A DNA stretch of 56,088 nucleotides from Dehalococcoidia bacterium (GCA_029247135.1 JAQWLS010000072.1:1-56088), one strand, 5' to 3'. Counted from the stretch's first letter, positions 25,526-35,371 are shown. Program-made: numbers and translations. The notes: generated by a model from the letters alone, not told the origin.

Positions 25526-25532
25526 AAAATGT

Positions 25533-25546
25533 ACCTTTTCGAAGGT
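25533..25546 (+). terminator. UUCG-loop hairpin after the acyl-CoA dehydrogenase
   Basis: ACCTT and AAGGT form a five-pair stem closing a TTCG tetraloop seven bases after the stop codon. The next bases are not T-rich, so it is not a classical intrinsic terminator. It may act as an mRNA 3'-end or processing element. Confidence 0.35.
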
Positions 25547-25555
25547 GGTTGAAAT

Positions 25556-25567
25556 GTGTTATAACAC
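25556..25567 (+). promoter_or_regulatory. Perfect 12-bp palindrome upstream of the DUF1800 operon
   Basis: GTGTTATAACAC is its own reverse complement and lies 48 bases before the DUF1800 start. It contains TATAAC, a fair -10 element, though the -35 region is poor. A regulator bound here would cover the promoter of the operon. Confidence 0.4.
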
Positions 25568-25615
25568 TGTAAGTTAACGATTTATTTACTAAAAAAATAT
25601 AGTTGGAGTGACCTG

Positions 25616-27040
25616 ATGACAACCGAGATTTCGATATCTACAGATGAGAGAATCGCCCTTATTGGGCATTTAATGCGCCGAGTTGGTGTGGGTGCCAGTC
25701 GCGACAGACTTGAGTCTCTTTCAGAGAAATCGTATGAGCAGTTGGTAGAAGACCTGCTGAGCCCGAATCTGTATGCTGACCCAGATGTAGATCTATTGGA
25801 CAGATACCTGCCACAATCAGCAAGTCCTGATACTGGCGCTACGTGGGCCGCCCGATGGATGTATAACCTTGCGCAGAGTGATCGCCCATTAATGGAAAAA
25901 ATGGCACTGTTTTGGCATCATGTGTTCGCGACTGCATGGTATAAGGCTGAGAATGGGCCGGCAATAGTGCAACACATGGAGATGTTTAGAGAAGTTGGCC
26001 TTGGTAATATGCGCGATATCTTGTTAGCTCTTTCTAGAGATCCAAACATGATTTTTTGGCTAGATAATTCTGAGAGCAGAGACGGTGCAGTTAACGAAAA
26101 CTACGGTCGGGAACTATTAGAGTTGTTTTCGATGGGTATTGGAACCTATACCGAAACTGACGTCAAAATGGCTGCTAGGGCATTTACTGGATGGACTTTT
26201 AAGCAGCCGATTCCTCTTTACCCGTATGGCGGATATGCGGCAGAATTTATTTATCATCCTGAGCAGCATGATAACTCGGAAAAAGAATTTCTCGGCGAAA
26301 AAGGAAATTTCAATGGAGAAGATATTATCGACATTATAGTGAAGCAGGAGGCATGTGCTCGCTTCATTTCACGGCATTTGTATAATTTTTTCGTCGCTGA
26401 CGAACCGCAAGTACCTGCATGGAGTATTACTCCGCCCCAGGATCAGCAAGCAATTGATGAACTTACAGGCGTATTTTTGGATTCGGATGGTGATTTAACA
26501 GCAGTAATGCGAGTCTTATTGAATGCAAATTGGTTCAAGGATGCACGTTTCAAAAAAATAAAGAGTCCTGCCGAATTTGTGGCTGGTGCGTTGGTACTGT
26601 CGGGCTTGCCAGAAACACCGGACCCTATGTTGGCCTCATTGAACGCTGCGACGACCGCGATGGGGCAGCAATTGCTTAATCCACCTACCGTTGAGGGCTG
26701 GCATACAGGGAAAGAGTGGCTGGACTCTGGAACACTGACTGAAAGAGTAAATTTCGCAGTAAATCAAGTTGCAGAAGCGTCACTTCCTGGGGTGAGTAGT
26801 ATTCTGTCGAAAATTCAGTCGCACGGTGATAATTTATCATCAGAGGAATTGGTAAATTTATGTTTGGATCTCACTGGTCACGTGGAGATTAGTGGTGACA
26901 CCCATGCGGCACTTGTTGATCTTGCGAGTCAAGGAGGACAGCTCCAATTTGATACGGAAGTAAATGTCACAGAGAGTCAAAAGCAGATTATTAGACTTTT
27001 GCAGCTGATTGTATCGGCGCCTGAGTATCAATTCGCCTAA
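25616..27040 (+). CDS. DUF1800 family protein
   Basis: A 474-residue protein matching DUF1800 (PF08811): LMRRVGVGAS near the N-terminus, KMALFWHHVFAT, the NENYGRELLELFSMGIGTYTETDV block, the AARAFTGWTF block, and VEGWHTGKEWL near the C-terminus. The function of the family is unknown; it is almost always paired with DUF1501. Many DUF1800 proteins are exported, but no signal peptide is seen here. A GGAGTGA ribosome-binding site precedes the ATG. DUF1501 follows 27 bases later. Confidence 0.9.
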   Translation: MTTEISISTDERIALIGHLMRRVGVGASRDRLESLSEKSYEQLVEDLLSPNLYADPDVDLLDRYLPQSASPDTGATWAARWMYNLAQSDRPLMEKMALFWHHVFATAWYKAENGPAIVQHMEMFREVGLGNMRDILLALSRDPNMIFWLDNSESRDGAVNENYGRELLELFSMGIGTYTETDVKMAARAFTGWTFKQPIPLYPYGGYAAEFIYHPEQHDNSEKEFLGEKGNFNGEDIIDIIVKQEACARFISRHLYNFFVADEPQVPAWSITPPQDQQAIDELTGVFLDSDGDLTAVMRVLLNANWFKDARFKKIKSPAEFVAGALVLSGLPETPDPMLASLNAATTAMGQQLLNPPTVEGWHTGKEWLDSGTLTERVNFAVNQVAEASLPGVSSILSKIQSHGDNLSSEELVNLCLDLTGHVEISGDTHAALVDLASQGGQLQFDTEVNVTESQKQIIRLLQLIVSAPEYQFA

Positions 27041-27067
27041 TAAGAGTATTTAATAGAGGAGATATCT

Positions 27068-28216
27068 ATGACGACTAAGAAGAAAGATCCAGTTTTAGTT
27101 GTAGTTCAGCTATCAGGTGGCTTGGATTTTATGAATACACTGATTCCGTATACGGATGGTCGTATTTATGACTGGCGACCTACGGTCTCGGTGGCTGCAG
27201 AATCTACTATTTCTCTTGATGATCGGCTGGCATGGCATCCTTCTGCGCAAGCACTGTCTGAGCTCTATAACGCTGGCAACGTGGCAGCTATCCAAGGTGT
27301 TGGCTATGAGAACGCGAGCCGATCTCACTTTCGTGCCATGGATATAATGCATACCTGCGAACCTGAAAAAGTAGCAACCGAAGGCTGGTTGGGTAAAGTC
27401 ACCCGTGAATTAGATCCCAATTCAGAAAATCCATTAACTGCTGTCTCTATTGGGAGAGGTCTACCTAGAGCGTTAGTTGCACCAGGGGTAACGGCAACAT
27501 CCGTGGGCAATCTGGACAAATTTGGGTTAATGACAAAGATTGAGCAAGTAGAGGAGCGAACCGCTAACCTTGATATTTTCAAGCGAATGTATAGCCCAGC
27601 CGTGGGTAACGGATTGGTCAATGACTACCTTGCTCAGACTGGACGCGATATTCTGCGAGGTGCAGATATGTTGGCGGATGTGCCTTCTCGGTATTCAAGT
27701 GATGTGGAGTATGCGAACAATCCCATCGCTCAGGCGCTTCGCGACGTCGCACGGATACATACCGCGGGCATGGGTACCCGAGTGTTTTATACGAACCACG
27801 TGGGGTACGACTATCACTCTCTCGAGAATGAAGTTCACCCGCGCATGTTGACTGAACTAACAGAAGCAATATCTGATTTTATGACTGATATCAGAAATCA
27901 TGACGCATCGGAAGAAGTGACTATCTTAGTCTTTACCGAATTCGGAAGACGGATAATGGATAATGGCTCGGGAACCGATCACGGCACTGGTGGTGGTGCA
28001 TATATCATTGGCGACCACGTATCTGGAGGTTTGTACGCGGAATATCCATCACTTGATCCAAAGGATTGGTTGTATGGTGAAGACTTAACGCACACGATTG
28101 ATTATCGAAGCATATACACCAGTATTCTTGAGCAATGGATGGGCATGGATGCTCAACCAATTGTCGGTGGTACGTATGAGCAAATTAGACCATACAACAC
28201 AACGATGTTGGTTTAG
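27068..28216 (+). CDS. DUF1501 family protein (sulfatase/phosphatase-like fold)
   Basis: A 382-residue DUF1501 protein (PF07394), a branch of the alkaline phosphatase/sulfatase-like fold. Signatures are VVVQLSGGLDFMNTLIPY, the SRSHFRAMDIM segment, VFTEFGRRIMDNGSGTDHGTGGGAYIIGD with its Asp-His-Gly metal-binding-like motif, and the final DYRSIYTSILEQWMG. Family members usually begin with a twin-arginine signal; this one does not, so it is predicted to be cytoplasmic or exported with a partner. It pairs with the upstream DUF1800 gene. Confidence 0.9.
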   Translation: MTTKKKDPVLVVVQLSGGLDFMNTLIPYTDGRIYDWRPTVSVAAESTISLDDRLAWHPSAQALSELYNAGNVAAIQGVGYENASRSHFRAMDIMHTCEPEKVATEGWLGKVTRELDPNSENPLTAVSIGRGLPRALVAPGVTATSVGNLDKFGLMTKIEQVEERTANLDIFKRMYSPAVGNGLVNDYLAQTGRDILRGADMLADVPSRYSSDVEYANNPIAQALRDVARIHTAGMGTRVFYTNHVGYDYHSLENEVHPRMLTELTEAISDFMTDIRNHDASEEVTILVFTEFGRRIMDNGSGTDHGTGGGAYIIGDHVSGGLYAEYPSLDPKDWLYGEDLTHTIDYRSIYTSILEQWMGMDAQPIVGGTYEQIRPYNTTMLV

Positions 28217-28241
28217 ATTACTAAAAAAGCGAGAAAAAGAT

Positions 28242-29261
28242 ATGACTACAGATATAAAGAAGACGGACACCGCTGATTATGAGGTTTTGCTCAGGGCTGG
28301 GTTTCCGTACGAAAAGACATTGGGGATGCGGCGGATAACTTGGTATCCCATTGATATAGAAGTTGGCCCTAATAATGAAGTCTACTGTCTAGGCCGATTC
28401 GATGTGGGGGGCAGTATTAGGACTGTAAGTTGGGATGATAAAGATTTAGGTGGAATTGGTGGCGGCTGGACTTGGCCCGCCGGAATAACCAAGGACCAAG
28501 ATGGTCTTTTATATATATCAGATGAAGGTGCTCATAATATTACGATGCTAAAGACGGATGGTGAAGAGATTGGCCGATGGGGAGAATATGGTTCAGAACC
28601 TGGTCAATTAAATAGGCCATCTCATATGGCATTTGACTCCGATGGAAATATATTGATATCAGACACGCAGAATCACAGGATTCAGAAATTTTCTTCTACT
28701 GGAGAATTCATATCTTCGTTCGGGACTTTTGGTGACCAGCCTGGTCAGTTTAATATGCCTTGGGGTATTTCAGTCACGCCAGAAGATAACATCGTCGTTG
28801 CTGACTGGAGAAATGATCGAATTCAAGTATTCGATTCATCTGGAACTGTCCTCGAGGTTGTAGGTTCATCAGGATCTGGTCCTGGGCAATTGTCTCGCCC
28901 AGCAGGAATATCAGTTGATGCCGACGGAGATATATACGTAGTTGATCGAGGTAATGGTAGGGTTTTGCAATTTGATCGGAACGGCCGACACGTGGAAGAG
29001 TTCATTGGAGACTCAACACTTGGTGAAATGGGACGAATTTACATACTAACTAATTTAAAGGTATTACGACTTCGTGATATGGCTGATCTCGAGCCCACGA
29101 AGAGATTTAAGTCACCGAGTTCGGTTAGAACCCAAGATGGCCGATTGTTTGTAGGCGATTATGGCTGTCACCGAGTTCAGGTATATAAGAAAGAGGCATA
29201 CAGACTAGCTTCAGAAGAAGTTATGGATTTACCCAAAGTGCCAAATTTATTTACGGTCTGA
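28242..29261 (+). CDS. NHL-repeat beta-propeller protein
   Basis: A 339-residue protein. I place the start at ATG 28242 because residues read further upstream lie inside the DUF1501 gene. At least five NHL-type blades are visible, each with a GxFxxPxGIxxDxxGxxYVxDxxNxRIQxF pattern: for example MAFDSDGNILISDTQNHRIQKF, then ISVTPEDNIVVADWRNDRIQVF, then ISVDADGDIYVVDRGNGRVLQF. A final blade ends GDYGCHRVQVYKK. No signal peptide or enzyme motif is seen. NHL propellers bind proteins, RNA or small molecules. The next gene starts four bases after its stop. Confidence 0.87.
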   Translation: MTTDIKKTDTADYEVLLRAGFPYEKTLGMRRITWYPIDIEVGPNNEVYCLGRFDVGGSIRTVSWDDKDLGGIGGGWTWPAGITKDQDGLLYISDEGAHNITMLKTDGEEIGRWGEYGSEPGQLNRPSHMAFDSDGNILISDTQNHRIQKFSSTGEFISSFGTFGDQPGQFNMPWGISVTPEDNIVVADWRNDRIQVFDSSGTVLEVVGSSGSGPGQLSRPAGISVDADGDIYVVDRGNGRVLQFDRNGRHVEEFIGDSTLGEMGRIYILTNLKVLRLRDMADLEPTKRFKSPSSVRTQDGRLFVGDYGCHRVQVYKKEAYRLASEEVMDLPKVPNLFTV

Positions 29262-29265
29262 ATCC

Positions 29266-29604
29266 ATGCCAATAATGATTGGTTTTTCTCAGCACAGGAA
29301 GACGCTGCTTTCGGAAGAGCTAGACCGTGTCAGGAGAGAATTCCCTTCACTAGGCCTCATCAAAGTGTGGTTAGCTGGTGACTTTTCACGGGGCTATGTT
29401 GATTTTGATACGCCATTGGAATTTTTGATTATTAGAGATACCACTGATCCATATCCAAAAAGGGCAGACTTTTTCACAGATCATTTGCGCCCGCAAGTTG
29501 AGACACATTTTCATGTGTACAATCCGGATGAATTTAGTCAGGGCGAGTGTGAGGATCGGTTTGTAGAACTAACACTGAGGGCCGGCGAATTGATCTATGG
29601 TTAG
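29266..29604 (+). CDS. Degenerate MNT-type nucleotidyltransferase-like protein
   Basis: A 112-residue protein with a minimal nucleotidyltransferase layout: helix, then VWLAGDFSRGYVDFDTPLEFLII, which aligns with the GSxARGxxxxxSDIDLLV active-site motif. Here the Ser is Asp (GDFSRG), the first metal-binding Asp is Pro and the second is Glu, so catalysis is doubtful. A HEPN gene follows 11 bases later, and MNT/HEPN pairs are a well-known two-gene arrangement. Alone the match is weak; the neighbour makes it likelier. Alternative start: ATG 29275. Confidence 0.6.
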   Translation: MPIMIGFSQHRKTLLSEELDRVRREFPSLGLIKVWLAGDFSRGYVDFDTPLEFLIIRDTTDPYPKRADFFTDHLRPQVETHFHVYNPDEFSQGECEDRFVELTLRAGELIYG

Positions 29605-29615
29605 GACGTTGATGA

Positions 29616-30062
29616 ATGTCGATTAATTCAAATGAAAGCCTCAACCGACGGCGCAAGAGAGAAGCTGATAGATGGCTTACTCAGTCCGGTCATGATCTTG
29701 ATTCAGCTCGTTTTCTAATGCAGTCTGGAATGTATGCGTTGGTATGTTTTTTATCTCATCAAACCGCTGAGAAGGCTGTCTCAGCATATTTATACGCACG
29801 AGGGGTTGAGATGTTGTGGGGTCATGGCCTAGCTGATTTATGTGAGGACGCAATGGCATTTGAGCCATCTTTTGATTTAATCAAGTCAAGTGCGGTGCAG
29901 CTTGATAAGCATTACTTGGGTGCACGGTATCCTAGTGTTCTTCCAGCAGGGGTGCCCTTTGAATCTTATTCATCTGAAGATGGAGACCGGGCCCTGGTAA
30001 TTGCTCAGGACACATACGACTTCGTTGTTGAGCAGTTGAATCTATTCATGGGCCATGACTAA
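29616..30062 (+). CDS. HEPN-domain protein
   Basis: A 148-residue protein with the HEPN four-helix pattern (PF05168): ADRWLTQSGHDLDSARFLMQSGMYALVCFLSHQTAEKAV (helices 1 and 2), a GHGLADLCEDA turn, and the later LGARYPSVLP segment with YSSEDGDRALVIAQDTYDFV. The RYPS type usually lacks the Rx4-6H RNase motif of HEPN toxins, and none is clear here. Its partner is the MNT-like gene upstream. Possible roles are nucleotide or nucleic-acid binding or a toxin/antitoxin-like pair; none is proven. Confidence 0.85.
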   Translation: MSINSNESLNRRRKREADRWLTQSGHDLDSARFLMQSGMYALVCFLSHQTAEKAVSAYLYARGVEMLWGHGLADLCEDAMAFEPSFDLIKSSAVQLDKHYLGARYPSVLPAGVPFESYSSEDGDRALVIAQDTYDFVVEQLNLFMGHD

Positions 30063-33229: not shown

Positions 33230-35371
33230 CTATCTAGAGTTATAAAGCGTGAGATTTTCTTTCGTAAGTTCATTACCAAGTTCTTCTTGAAATGAAGAAA
33301 AGTCTTCTAAATCCCACTCTGCCACAAAAATAATGGACTTGCCTGATTTTCCTGCTCGCCCAGTTCTACCTGTTCGATGAATATATTCTTCCGTGTTTTG
33401 CGGAAAGTCGAAATGAACAACATGGGTGATTTCCGGAATATCAATTCCCCGCGCCGCCACATTTGTGGCAACTAGCAGGTCTAATACGCCCTCACGAAAT
33501 TGTTTCACCACGCGGTCTCGAGTTCTTTGGTCCATATCTCCGTGCAGTGCACCTACTTTAATACCTTCACCGGACAACGCTTTGGCTAGTCGTTCGACCA
33601 TTCTTCTCGTTCGACAGAATACTAGGCTTTTACCTCTGAGCTCTCGTTCAATCAACTCTTTTAACGCAATTATTTTGTCACGTTCAGCCACTTCGACATA
33701 TGTTTGTTGAATACTTACGGCTGCCGAGAGCTCTTTATCTATCGCTAGCGTTTCCGGGTCTTCCATGAATTGCCAAATTAGTCGCTTGATAGTTGTGGGC
33801 ATAGTTGCAGAGAAGAGAGCAGTTTGGCGTGCGCGTGGCGTCTGCGACAGGATTTTTCTAATTGCAGGAAGAAAGCCTATATCTAGCATTTCATCTGCCT
33901 CATCTAATACTGCGAATGAGACTTTCCGCAGGCTTAATGTTCGCCGCTGCAAGTGATCAAGCACGCGTCCAGGTGTTCCTACGACTATGTGTGGATTACC
34001 TTCTAATGCCTGAAAGTCTTTTTTAAGTGCATGCCCACCTAACAAGCCCACTGTTTTCAGATTCCATGGCTTGGCAAGTGTAGATATAACGTCAAGTACC
34101 TGTTGCGCTAGCTCTCGAGTTGGAACTAATACAAGCCCCTGAACTTGATTTTTTCTCTGATCAAGTGTCTCAATCATTGGTGAGGCAAAGGCGATAGTTT
34201 TACCACTGCCTGTTTCGGCTAATCCAACTACGTCCTTTCCTGCTAGTAAAGTGGGTATGGTTGCAGCTTGAATGGGAGTTGGTGTGACAAACTCCATATC
34301 TCTGAATACTTCAAGCGATAAGTCTTGAAGACCTAATTTCCGAAATTCTTCAGGGAGAGTACCGACGTTCTTAAGCACATTCCCTTGCTTTTCTTCTGAA
34401 TTACGAGCATTTTGTGTACGTGGAGATTCTTCAATATTTTTCACAGACTCAGCAGCTTTATCAGATATCTCCATCTGCTCAGATTGCTCGCGATTAGTAG
34501 TGGGTTCATCATTTTGTGAATTATGGGTGCTCTGTATACGTGAAGACTCTTTAATCTCTTTCACAAACTCAGCAGTTTTATCGGATGTATCCGCCTGCTC
34601 AGGTTGTTGGCGATTAGTATCGGCTTCATAGGTCTGAGAATTACTGGTGCCTTGCGTAGGTACCGACTCTTTGAGTTCGTTCGCTAGCTTAGGTTTTTCA
34701 CTGGGTACCTTTGAATGCTCTGCTTGTCGCCGACTCGAGTCTGTTTTCGAACGGTTAAGGTCGCTAGCTTTTTTCTGTTGTGTGGATTTTGATGTTTCAT
34801 CGGAAGGATTAATCCAACCACCAAGAGTTCGTGGACCACTTTCAATAAGCCGGTCAGTCGATTTGTGCCTGCGAGGCCGATGTCGTATTTCTGGTAGTAG
34901 CGTAGAATCGCCTCCAGCATCTTTTGGTCTAAAGGCCAAGTCTTCAGGAAGTGGTGCTTCGAAAGTTCGTTCACGTCTTCGTCGGGTGTAGTGATCTGTT
35001 TCGACTACTCTCCGGCGATTCGAGCCTCCATTAGTCCGTCGCTGTTTGTCAGACGGTCGGTCTGACTTTTGAGTATTATTGCCTGGGCGGGAATTACTTC
35101 CACGCTTGTTTGCCACGGCCGTGGCATTAGATTGTTTCATATTCGAATTTTGTGTCTTTTCTTTTTGTTGAATTTTCTCTGTATGTTTTGAGTTTCCCCG
35201 AGCTTGTGTCTGCTCATCTCTACGATTGGCGGTAGGTCTTTGTGCGCCGGAATGTGAGTTGGTTCGTCGTTTTCTAGATCTCGGCGCAGATCGATCGCCA
35301 GAATTCGACGACGAGGTTTCGTCAGCCTCTTTTTTTATTAGAGACTTGATCCAATTAACGCCACGACTCAC
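33230..35371 (-). CDS. DEAD-box RNA helicase with long disordered N-terminal extension
   Basis: A 713-residue protein. The helicase core (about 335-690) has the Q motif region (FRDMEFVTPTPIQA), motif I AETGSGKT (385-392), motif II DEAD (490-493), SAT (521-523) and the C-terminal HRTGRTGRAG. About 330 N-terminal residues precede it and are low-complexity, Arg/Lys/Ser/Gln-rich and probably disordered, with RRRRERT clusters (about 128-136). Typical bacterial DEAD-box proteins carry basic tails after the core instead. It starts at GTG after GGGAG. Likely role: RNA remodelling, ribosome assembly or cold adaptation. Confidence 0.93.
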   Translation of the reverse strand: MSRGVNWIKSLIKKEADETSSSNSGDRSAPRSRKRRTNSHSGAQRPTANRRDEQTQARGNSKHTEKIQQKEKTQNSNMKQSNATAVANKRGSNSRPGNNTQKSDRPSDKQRRTNGGSNRRRVVETDHYTRRRRERTFEAPLPEDLAFRPKDAGGDSTLLPEIRHRPRRHKSTDRLIESGPRTLGGWINPSDETSKSTQQKKASDLNRSKTDSSRRQAEHSKVPSEKPKLANELKESVPTQGTSNSQTYEADTNRQQPEQADTSDKTAEFVKEIKESSRIQSTHNSQNDEPTTNREQSEQMEISDKAAESVKNIEESPRTQNARNSEEKQGNVLKNVGTLPEEFRKLGLQDLSLEVFRDMEFVTPTPIQAATIPTLLAGKDVVGLAETGSGKTIAFASPMIETLDQRKNQVQGLVLVPTRELAQQVLDVISTLAKPWNLKTVGLLGGHALKKDFQALEGNPHIVVGTPGRVLDHLQRRTLSLRKVSFAVLDEADEMLDIGFLPAIRKILSQTPRARQTALFSATMPTTIKRLIWQFMEDPETLAIDKELSAAVSIQQTYVEVAERDKIIALKELIERELRGKSLVFCRTRRMVERLAKALSGEGIKVGALHGDMDQRTRDRVVKQFREGVLDLLVATNVAARGIDIPEITHVVHFDFPQNTEEYIHRTGRTGRAGKSGKSIIFVAEWDLEDFSSFQEELGNELTKENLTLYNSR
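34391..34675 (-). repeat. In-frame 120-bp tandem repeat within the DEAD-box gene
   Basis: Two full copies of 40 codons (34556-34675 and 34436-34555) and a partial third (to about 34391) encode residues 233-272, 273-312 and 313-327. The repeat consensus has KESxxxQxTxNSQ, TNRxQxEQ and SDKxAExVK. Copies differ at many codons, so the duplication is not recent or is under selection. Confidence 0.8.

Follow-up and report, generated by a model that had tools for sequence, protein, structure and literature searches.

A conserved DUF1800-DUF1501-NHL gene triad with a clade-restricted pseudo-MNT-HEPN pair: a candidate cytosolic complex in SAR202 and other bacteria

Introduction

What keeps five genes of apparently unrelated function together? 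In a 56,088-nucleotide stretch of DNA from a Dehalococcoidia bacterium (GCA_029247135.1 JAQWLS010000072.1:1-56088, analysed as a whole and here called the window), genes for a DUF1800 protein, a DUF1501 protein, an NHL-repeat beta-propeller, a minimal nucleotidyltransferase (MNT) and a HEPN protein follow one another on the same strand with intergenic gaps of 27, 25, 4 and 11 nt. This layout, first described in a reading of the sequence alone (the original prediction), is confirmed by the positions of the open reading frames, by Pfam matches for DUF1800, DUF1501, NHL and HEPN and, for the MNT, through its relatives. The 1.6 Mb assembly to which the window belongs as contig C14 is 72% complete and contains a single DUF1800 gene. 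Both DUF1800 and DUF1501 are large families, for neither of which did we find a solved structure or an assayed member. They are, as the original prediction had it, a known pair: adjacent DUF1800 and DUF1501 genes (COG5267-COG4102) lie, for example, next to bacterial chitin synthases, with DUF1501 exported by the twin-arginine translocation (Tat) pathway (PMC5122149). Adjacent PF08811 and PF07394 genes are found here too.

We show here that DUF1800, DUF1501 and the NHL propeller form a conserved triad to which an MNT-HEPN pair has been added in one lineage. The five-gene association is non-random, far beyond chance, and we regard it as solid. That the triad forms a cytosolic hydrolase complex, with the MNT-HEPN pair as a domesticated accessory, is the interpretation we tentatively favour.

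Results

We surveyed a class sample of 294 genomes, 43 of which together hold 96 loci of the window-type DUF1501 clade. At 86 of these 96 loci an NHL gene on the same strand is no more than 2.5 kb away, as against 0/9 loci of the more distantly related exported type, and at least three of the ten clade loci with no NHL gene nearby have a contig end no more than about 200 nt from their start (G626, G647 and G586). The five-gene order DUF1800-DUF1501-NHL-MNT-HEPN is found in each of the three congeners. It also recurs in additional genera of their family, in different families of the same class and in a second Chloroflexota class (G108; G260, where DUF1800 is missing at a contig end). A DUF1501 profile scan of named genomes returned 80 loci, nearly all of them triads and a few cut by contig ends, in taxa including Candidatus Poribacteria, Caldilineaceae, a record labelled Entotheonella and the cultured Ca. 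Lucifugimonas marina (L120, CP046147.1), which carries the full five-gene set at one locus and the triad by itself at another.

In a set of 107 loci the NHL gene stands beside DUF1501 in all but one, which is cut by a contig end, and it does so across three gene orders, with 1800-NHL-1501 found in six loci and 1501-1800-NHL in one (L193). Paralogous loci (L191-L206) are triads in 16/16 cases despite shuffled gene orders, although one of these is the L140 locus again. DUF1501 reaches 10 copies per genome by Pfam count and 6 clade loci per genome in the class sample; the expansion is strong in genomes G443-G462, with up to 10 genes per genome by Pfam. Pairwise protein distances for all five proteins across 41 loci correlate with r = 0.79-0.95, compared with a permutation maximum of 0.21. 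Because the linkage of NHL, DUF1800 and DUF1501 survives reordering, it points to function as opposed to passive inheritance. The original prediction expected both NHL and MNT/HEPN genes in relatives that keep DUF1800 and DUF1501, and this holds for NHL but only in part for MNT/HEPN, which is absent from basal relatives. Of the 107 loci, leaving aside the one cut by a contig end, 46 have MNT-HEPN (four inverted) and 60 are triads with no such pair nearby; since the latter are so common, the propeller belongs to the triad as an obligate third component and is not, as had been proposed, a bridge from DUF1501 to MNT/HEPN. The triad is the core layer, multi-copy and often present several times per genome, while MNT-HEPN is a later, lineage-specific addition.

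Several wider connections were considered and rejected. Clustering of neighbouring genes gave lineage-specific flanks only and no conserved sixth partner. A mobile or phage origin was dismissed, the one phage match to DUF1501 being an unannotated 6.9-kb record at 30% identity and plasmid matches to the HEPN protein being at most 39% identical. PADLOC was negative for an anti-phage defence system save for a weak NHL/PD-T4-6 match (E 7e-4).

A structural model of DUF1501 (pLDDT 84.9) gave 85 PDB matches at E ≤ 0.001 (best E 9e-7, prob 1.0, TM about 0.4), with carrageenan sulfatases, arylsulfatases and LtaS as fold matches, in line with the phosphatase-like character originally predicted for it. 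Residues D20, S86, H87, H250, D304 and H305 are invariant in 95/95 clade sequences, the window's included, and in 19/19 exported ones, as is D248 (93/93 resolved letters in the clade, two being unresolved, and 19/19 exported). On sequence order and secondary structure rather than geometry, D20, D248, H250, D304 and H305 are putative ligands and S86 a candidate nucleophile. In the model S86 begins the helix that follows the second strand, and the nucleophile of alkaline-phosphatase superfamily enzymes normally occupies the start of the helix after the second strand. DUF1501 is therefore best described as a predicted hydrolase of the alkaline-phosphatase/sulfatase superfamily, with its putative active-site residues all kept. 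Assignment as a formylglycine (FGly) sulfatase (C/S-x-P-x-R) was rejected: C97-x-P-x-R occurs in 17/96 clade sequences, and the window reads CEPEK. Cys97 itself (CEP, window 27356-27358), at the C-terminal end of the modelled helix that begins after S86, is almost universal in the cytosolic clade, whereas exported relatives have Ala or Gly there; it may be a functional residue specific to the clade.

Neither the DUF1800 nor the DUF1501 protein of the window shows a signal peptide. The exported DUF1501 proteins of the same bacterial family, members of pairs that are about 30-35% identical to the pair described here, carry a twin-arginine N-terminal extension (RRTFIKRG and similar) in 19/19 cases, whereas RRxPhi occurs in 1/94 clade sequences, where it looks like a spurious upstream reading. 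The absence of a Tat signal supports a cytosolic location for the clade, as the original prediction supposed despite the exported relatives. The DUF1800 members of the exported pairs carry no signal themselves and may ride out with DUF1501 as Tat hitchhikers, in which case the two proteins would bind one another.

The AlphaFold2 model of DUF1800 (pLDDT 90.8, from 63 sequences) is confident and mostly alpha-helical and gave 0 matches at E ≤ 0.001 in a fold search of the PDB. Invariant across the 63 sequences are H18, H101, D150, N160-E161-N162, R165-E166, E169, E180, D182, D219 and K223, a set of polar residues which points to an active site. An apparent insertion in the DUF1800 of L048 is a run of N marking a scaffold gap. 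For the propeller, the nearest named family is ScyF, below the cut-off; kinship with ScyF or with TRIM71 is suggested by repeat scores, and no functional argument was built on it.

A Pfam search with the 112-residue MNT found no match. We recognised the protein from relatives (about 31% identity) that have the canonical motif and match PF01909/PF18765, and its profile match to the solved minimal nucleotidyltransferase 1WOT is marginal. In MntA, the GSX10DXD motif and a third Asp (D39, D41 and D71 being the three Asp residues) bind Mg-ATP, and the D39E/D41E change (DxD to ExE) alone abolishes adenylylation (PMC7641770). The window MNT has GD for GS, TPLE for SDxD and H81 for the third Asp. Across 53 operonic MNTs, S39 is found in 1/53, D50 in 3/53, D52 in 16/53 and D81 in 0/53, while GSX10DXD is intact in the canonical relatives L093 and L094. 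Other positions (R66, H73 and P76) are invariant in 53/53, the last two within a clade-specific HLRP motif. Judged by these residues, the MNT is a pseudo-nucleotidyltransferase whose active site has been lost.

The HEPN protein is of the PF05168 type, with PDB relatives 1WOL, 1UFB and 1O3U. A motif scan found neither RX4-6H nor RX4HXY near the conserved LDK..RYP helix, the stray R..H matches lying in the N-terminal helix or at the far C-terminus. Residues that are kept include H70 (in a WGH motif; 38/51), K98 (50/51) and R104 (51/51). Because HEPN-T proteins that lack RX4-6H are suggested to use another conserved His, as in AF0298-type HEPN (PMC3710099), and H70 is widely kept, we do not call the HEPN protein dead. 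Taken together, the loss of the MNT motif and a HEPN protein without RX4-6H set this pair apart from an ordinary HepT/MntA toxin-antitoxin (TA). With the MNT active site lost and no RNase motif in HEPN, the nucleotide or RNA binding originally proposed for the pair is only a possibility.

In the class sample, 37/38 strong HEPN matches have a clade DUF1501 gene no more than 5 kb away, compared with 0/36 weaker matches, and the sole strong match elsewhere (G213, locus L094) accompanies an intact canonical MNT. There is one such HEPN gene per genome in 37/43 genomes, many of which have several triads; in G455, G456 and G457 the pair is missing at the queried triad and present at another. MNT-HEPN is confined to a single 60-row clade of the DUF1501 tree, in which presence and absence amount to four state changes. 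On this basis, we conclude that the pair is a clade-restricted, coinherited accessory. The linkage is strong and not absolute, because in G452 a pseudo-MNT-like pair (NPLYPG..TPLK; L188:6410-7136) stands away from any DUF1501 gene, with triads elsewhere in the genome. Canonical class II pairs with intact GS..SDxD were seen off the triads at L093:3379-4102, L094:7492-8227 and L190:6110-6827, and are likely the kind of pair from which the operonic one derives. A HEPN sequence read into DUF1800 at L053:3041-3658 was not trusted: the 3.7-kb contig of G019 that carries it ends at this point, and an assembly join or a deletion is the probable cause.

Upstream of DUF1800 the window contains a hairpin and a 12-bp palindrome (Table 1), described originally as the operon's own. 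Both exist, but the window has 21 perfect palindromes of at least 12 bp where mononucleotide shuffles give 15. The palindrome upstream of DUF1800 is kept only in the near-identical locus L043 and not in the congeners L044 and L045. With the count close to chance and congeners lacking the sequence, a role as operator or promoter was rejected.

Acyl-CoA dehydrogenases flank the five-gene locus. Genes near triads elsewhere include those for GH88, 2-hydroxyacid dehydrogenase, GMC oxidoreductase, sulfatase, aldo-keto reductase, aldehyde dehydrogenase, enolase-superfamily and FMN-dependent dehydrogenase proteins. Genes of these kinds abound in SAR202 genomes, so the neighbours lend slight support to a catabolic role. 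Further along the window, a DEAD-box helicase (33230-35371) has a low-complexity N-terminal extension of roughly 350 residues.

Table 1. Features of the five-gene locus, in window coordinates.
Feature	Coordinates	Strand	Basis or remark
DUF1800 protein, 474 aa, predicted cytosolic clade, core member	25616..27040	+	Pfam E 3e-99
DUF1501 protein, 382 aa, no export signal, core member	27068..28216	+	Pfam E 2e-20
NHL-repeat beta-propeller, 339 aa, predicted cytosolic, core member	28242..29261	+	Pfam NHL E 2e-37
Degenerate minimal nucleotidyltransferase (pseudo-MNT), 112 aa	29266..29604	+	53 operonic MNTs aligned with the canonical relatives L093/L094
HEPN protein, 148 aa, PF05168 type	29616..30062	+	Pfam E 4e-22, PDB relatives, motif scan
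Hairpin (25533-25546) and 12-bp palindrome (25556-25567), 5' of DUF1800	25533..25567		Not conserved; no evidence of function

Discussion

The triad resembles, and departs from, several known systems. It shares with the chitin-synthase pair the same two Pfam families in adjacent genes, and the active-site residues of its DUF1501 are those of the exported DUF1501 proteins compared here; it differs from the known exported pair in having no Tat signal and in being tied to an NHL propeller. With sulfatases, LtaS and other alkaline-phosphatase-superfamily enzymes DUF1501 shares a predicted fold and a putative D / S / DxH / DH ligand set, but it has no general FGly signature and is predicted to be cytosolic with partner proteins. 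Like HepT/MntA (type VII) and class II HEPN/MNT systems (PF05168/PF01909), the locus has an MNT gene followed by an adjacent HEPN gene of the PF05168 type. It departs from them in lacking RX4HXY, a PF01909 MNT and GSX10DXD, and in having a fixed genomic partner and one copy per genome. COG4102 corresponds to DUF1501 and COG5267 to DUF1800, and the beta-propeller family COG3391 may include the NHL protein. These three COGs appear together as uncharacterised expanded families in the COG correlation matrix of a SAR202 pangenome study (PMC6946804), and that trio is probably the triad seen at the COG level; we found no gene neighbourhood, cytosolic clade or MNT-HEPN pair described there. In the open-access literature we found no account of the triad neighbourhood, the cytosolic DUF1501 clade or the pseudo-MNT-HEPN pair.

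In the complex that we tentatively favour, DUF1501 would act as a metal-dependent phospho- or sulfo-ester hydrolase, DUF1800 would be its obligate partner, probably with an active site of its own, and the propeller would be the third obligate component, offering a docking or substrate-binding surface. At a single paralogue in each genome, a HEPN/MNT pair of class II would have been domesticated, its MNT no longer transferring nucleotides, to act as a regulatory or assembly sub-complex. A bolder version seems less probable to us: an undescribed cytosolic complex, with paralogues across SAR202 and Poribacteria, in which the hydrolase and a new-fold DUF1800 enzyme sit on the NHL propeller and the TA-like pair is the regulatory subunit of one paralogue. 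A number of observations weigh against a complex of this kind. Operons can persist without their products forming complexes, TM-scores of DUF1501 to solved sulfatases are low (about 0.35-0.45), 24/111 strong NHL matches in the class sample lie away from DUF1501, and shared species history inflates all of the distance correlations. Six class genomes have triads but no strong HEPN match. Moreover, MNT-HEPN is not always cotranscribed with the triad, because it is inverted in one clade and lies upstream on the same strand at two loci (L187:6999-16425, by about 4.9 kb, and L153:4392-9172, by about 0.4 kb).

The irregular placement of the pair, together with MNT and HEPN genes that overlap or abut (median -8 nt) as those of TA pairs do, would also fit an ordinary toxin-antitoxin passenger that came by chance to lie behind a catabolic operon, and PF05168 pairs are indeed classed as HEPN/MNT class II (PMC7641770). 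TA modules, however, are usually mobile and retain their active sites. Here the pair occupies one site per genome throughout a deep clade, is coinherited with the triad (r = 0.79-0.92) and has lost GSX10DXD from nearly all copies, so that we find this explanation the hardest to accept. Somewhat less improbable is that the pair keeps an unconventional activity, the HEPN protein working through its other conserved His and the altered MNT serving as a nucleotide-binding sensor. The alternative His site proposed for AF0298-type HEPN, the retention of H70 in 38/51 HEPN proteins, the near-invariance of K98 and the full conservation of R104 and of H73 and P76 in the HLRP motif speak for it, whereas 13/51 HEPN proteins have G, D, S, N or E in place of H70 and the three positions equivalent to the Mg-binding Asp residues of MntA are mostly lost. 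We also judge it unlikely, to a similar degree, that this is simply an old operon of unrelated enzymes kept together by shared regulation. The catabolic enzymes flanking it would suit such an arrangement, but the other neighbours change, whereas NHL and DUF1800 stay by DUF1501 even where genes are reordered and paralogues multiply.

The triad provides DUF1501 and DUF1800 with a near-obligate third partner, and with a cytosolic form that could be co-expressed without the need for export. It is multi-copy in several genomes of SAR202, abundant bacteria of the deep ocean, and in Poribacteria, and is present in some sponge-associated bacteria; a role in the catabolism of sulfated or phosphorylated organic matter is our guess only. 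Since Ca. Lucifugimonas marina is cultured and has both forms of the locus, the idea is testable. If true, the pseudo-MNT/HEPN pair would represent a TA-like pair recruited to a metabolic complex.

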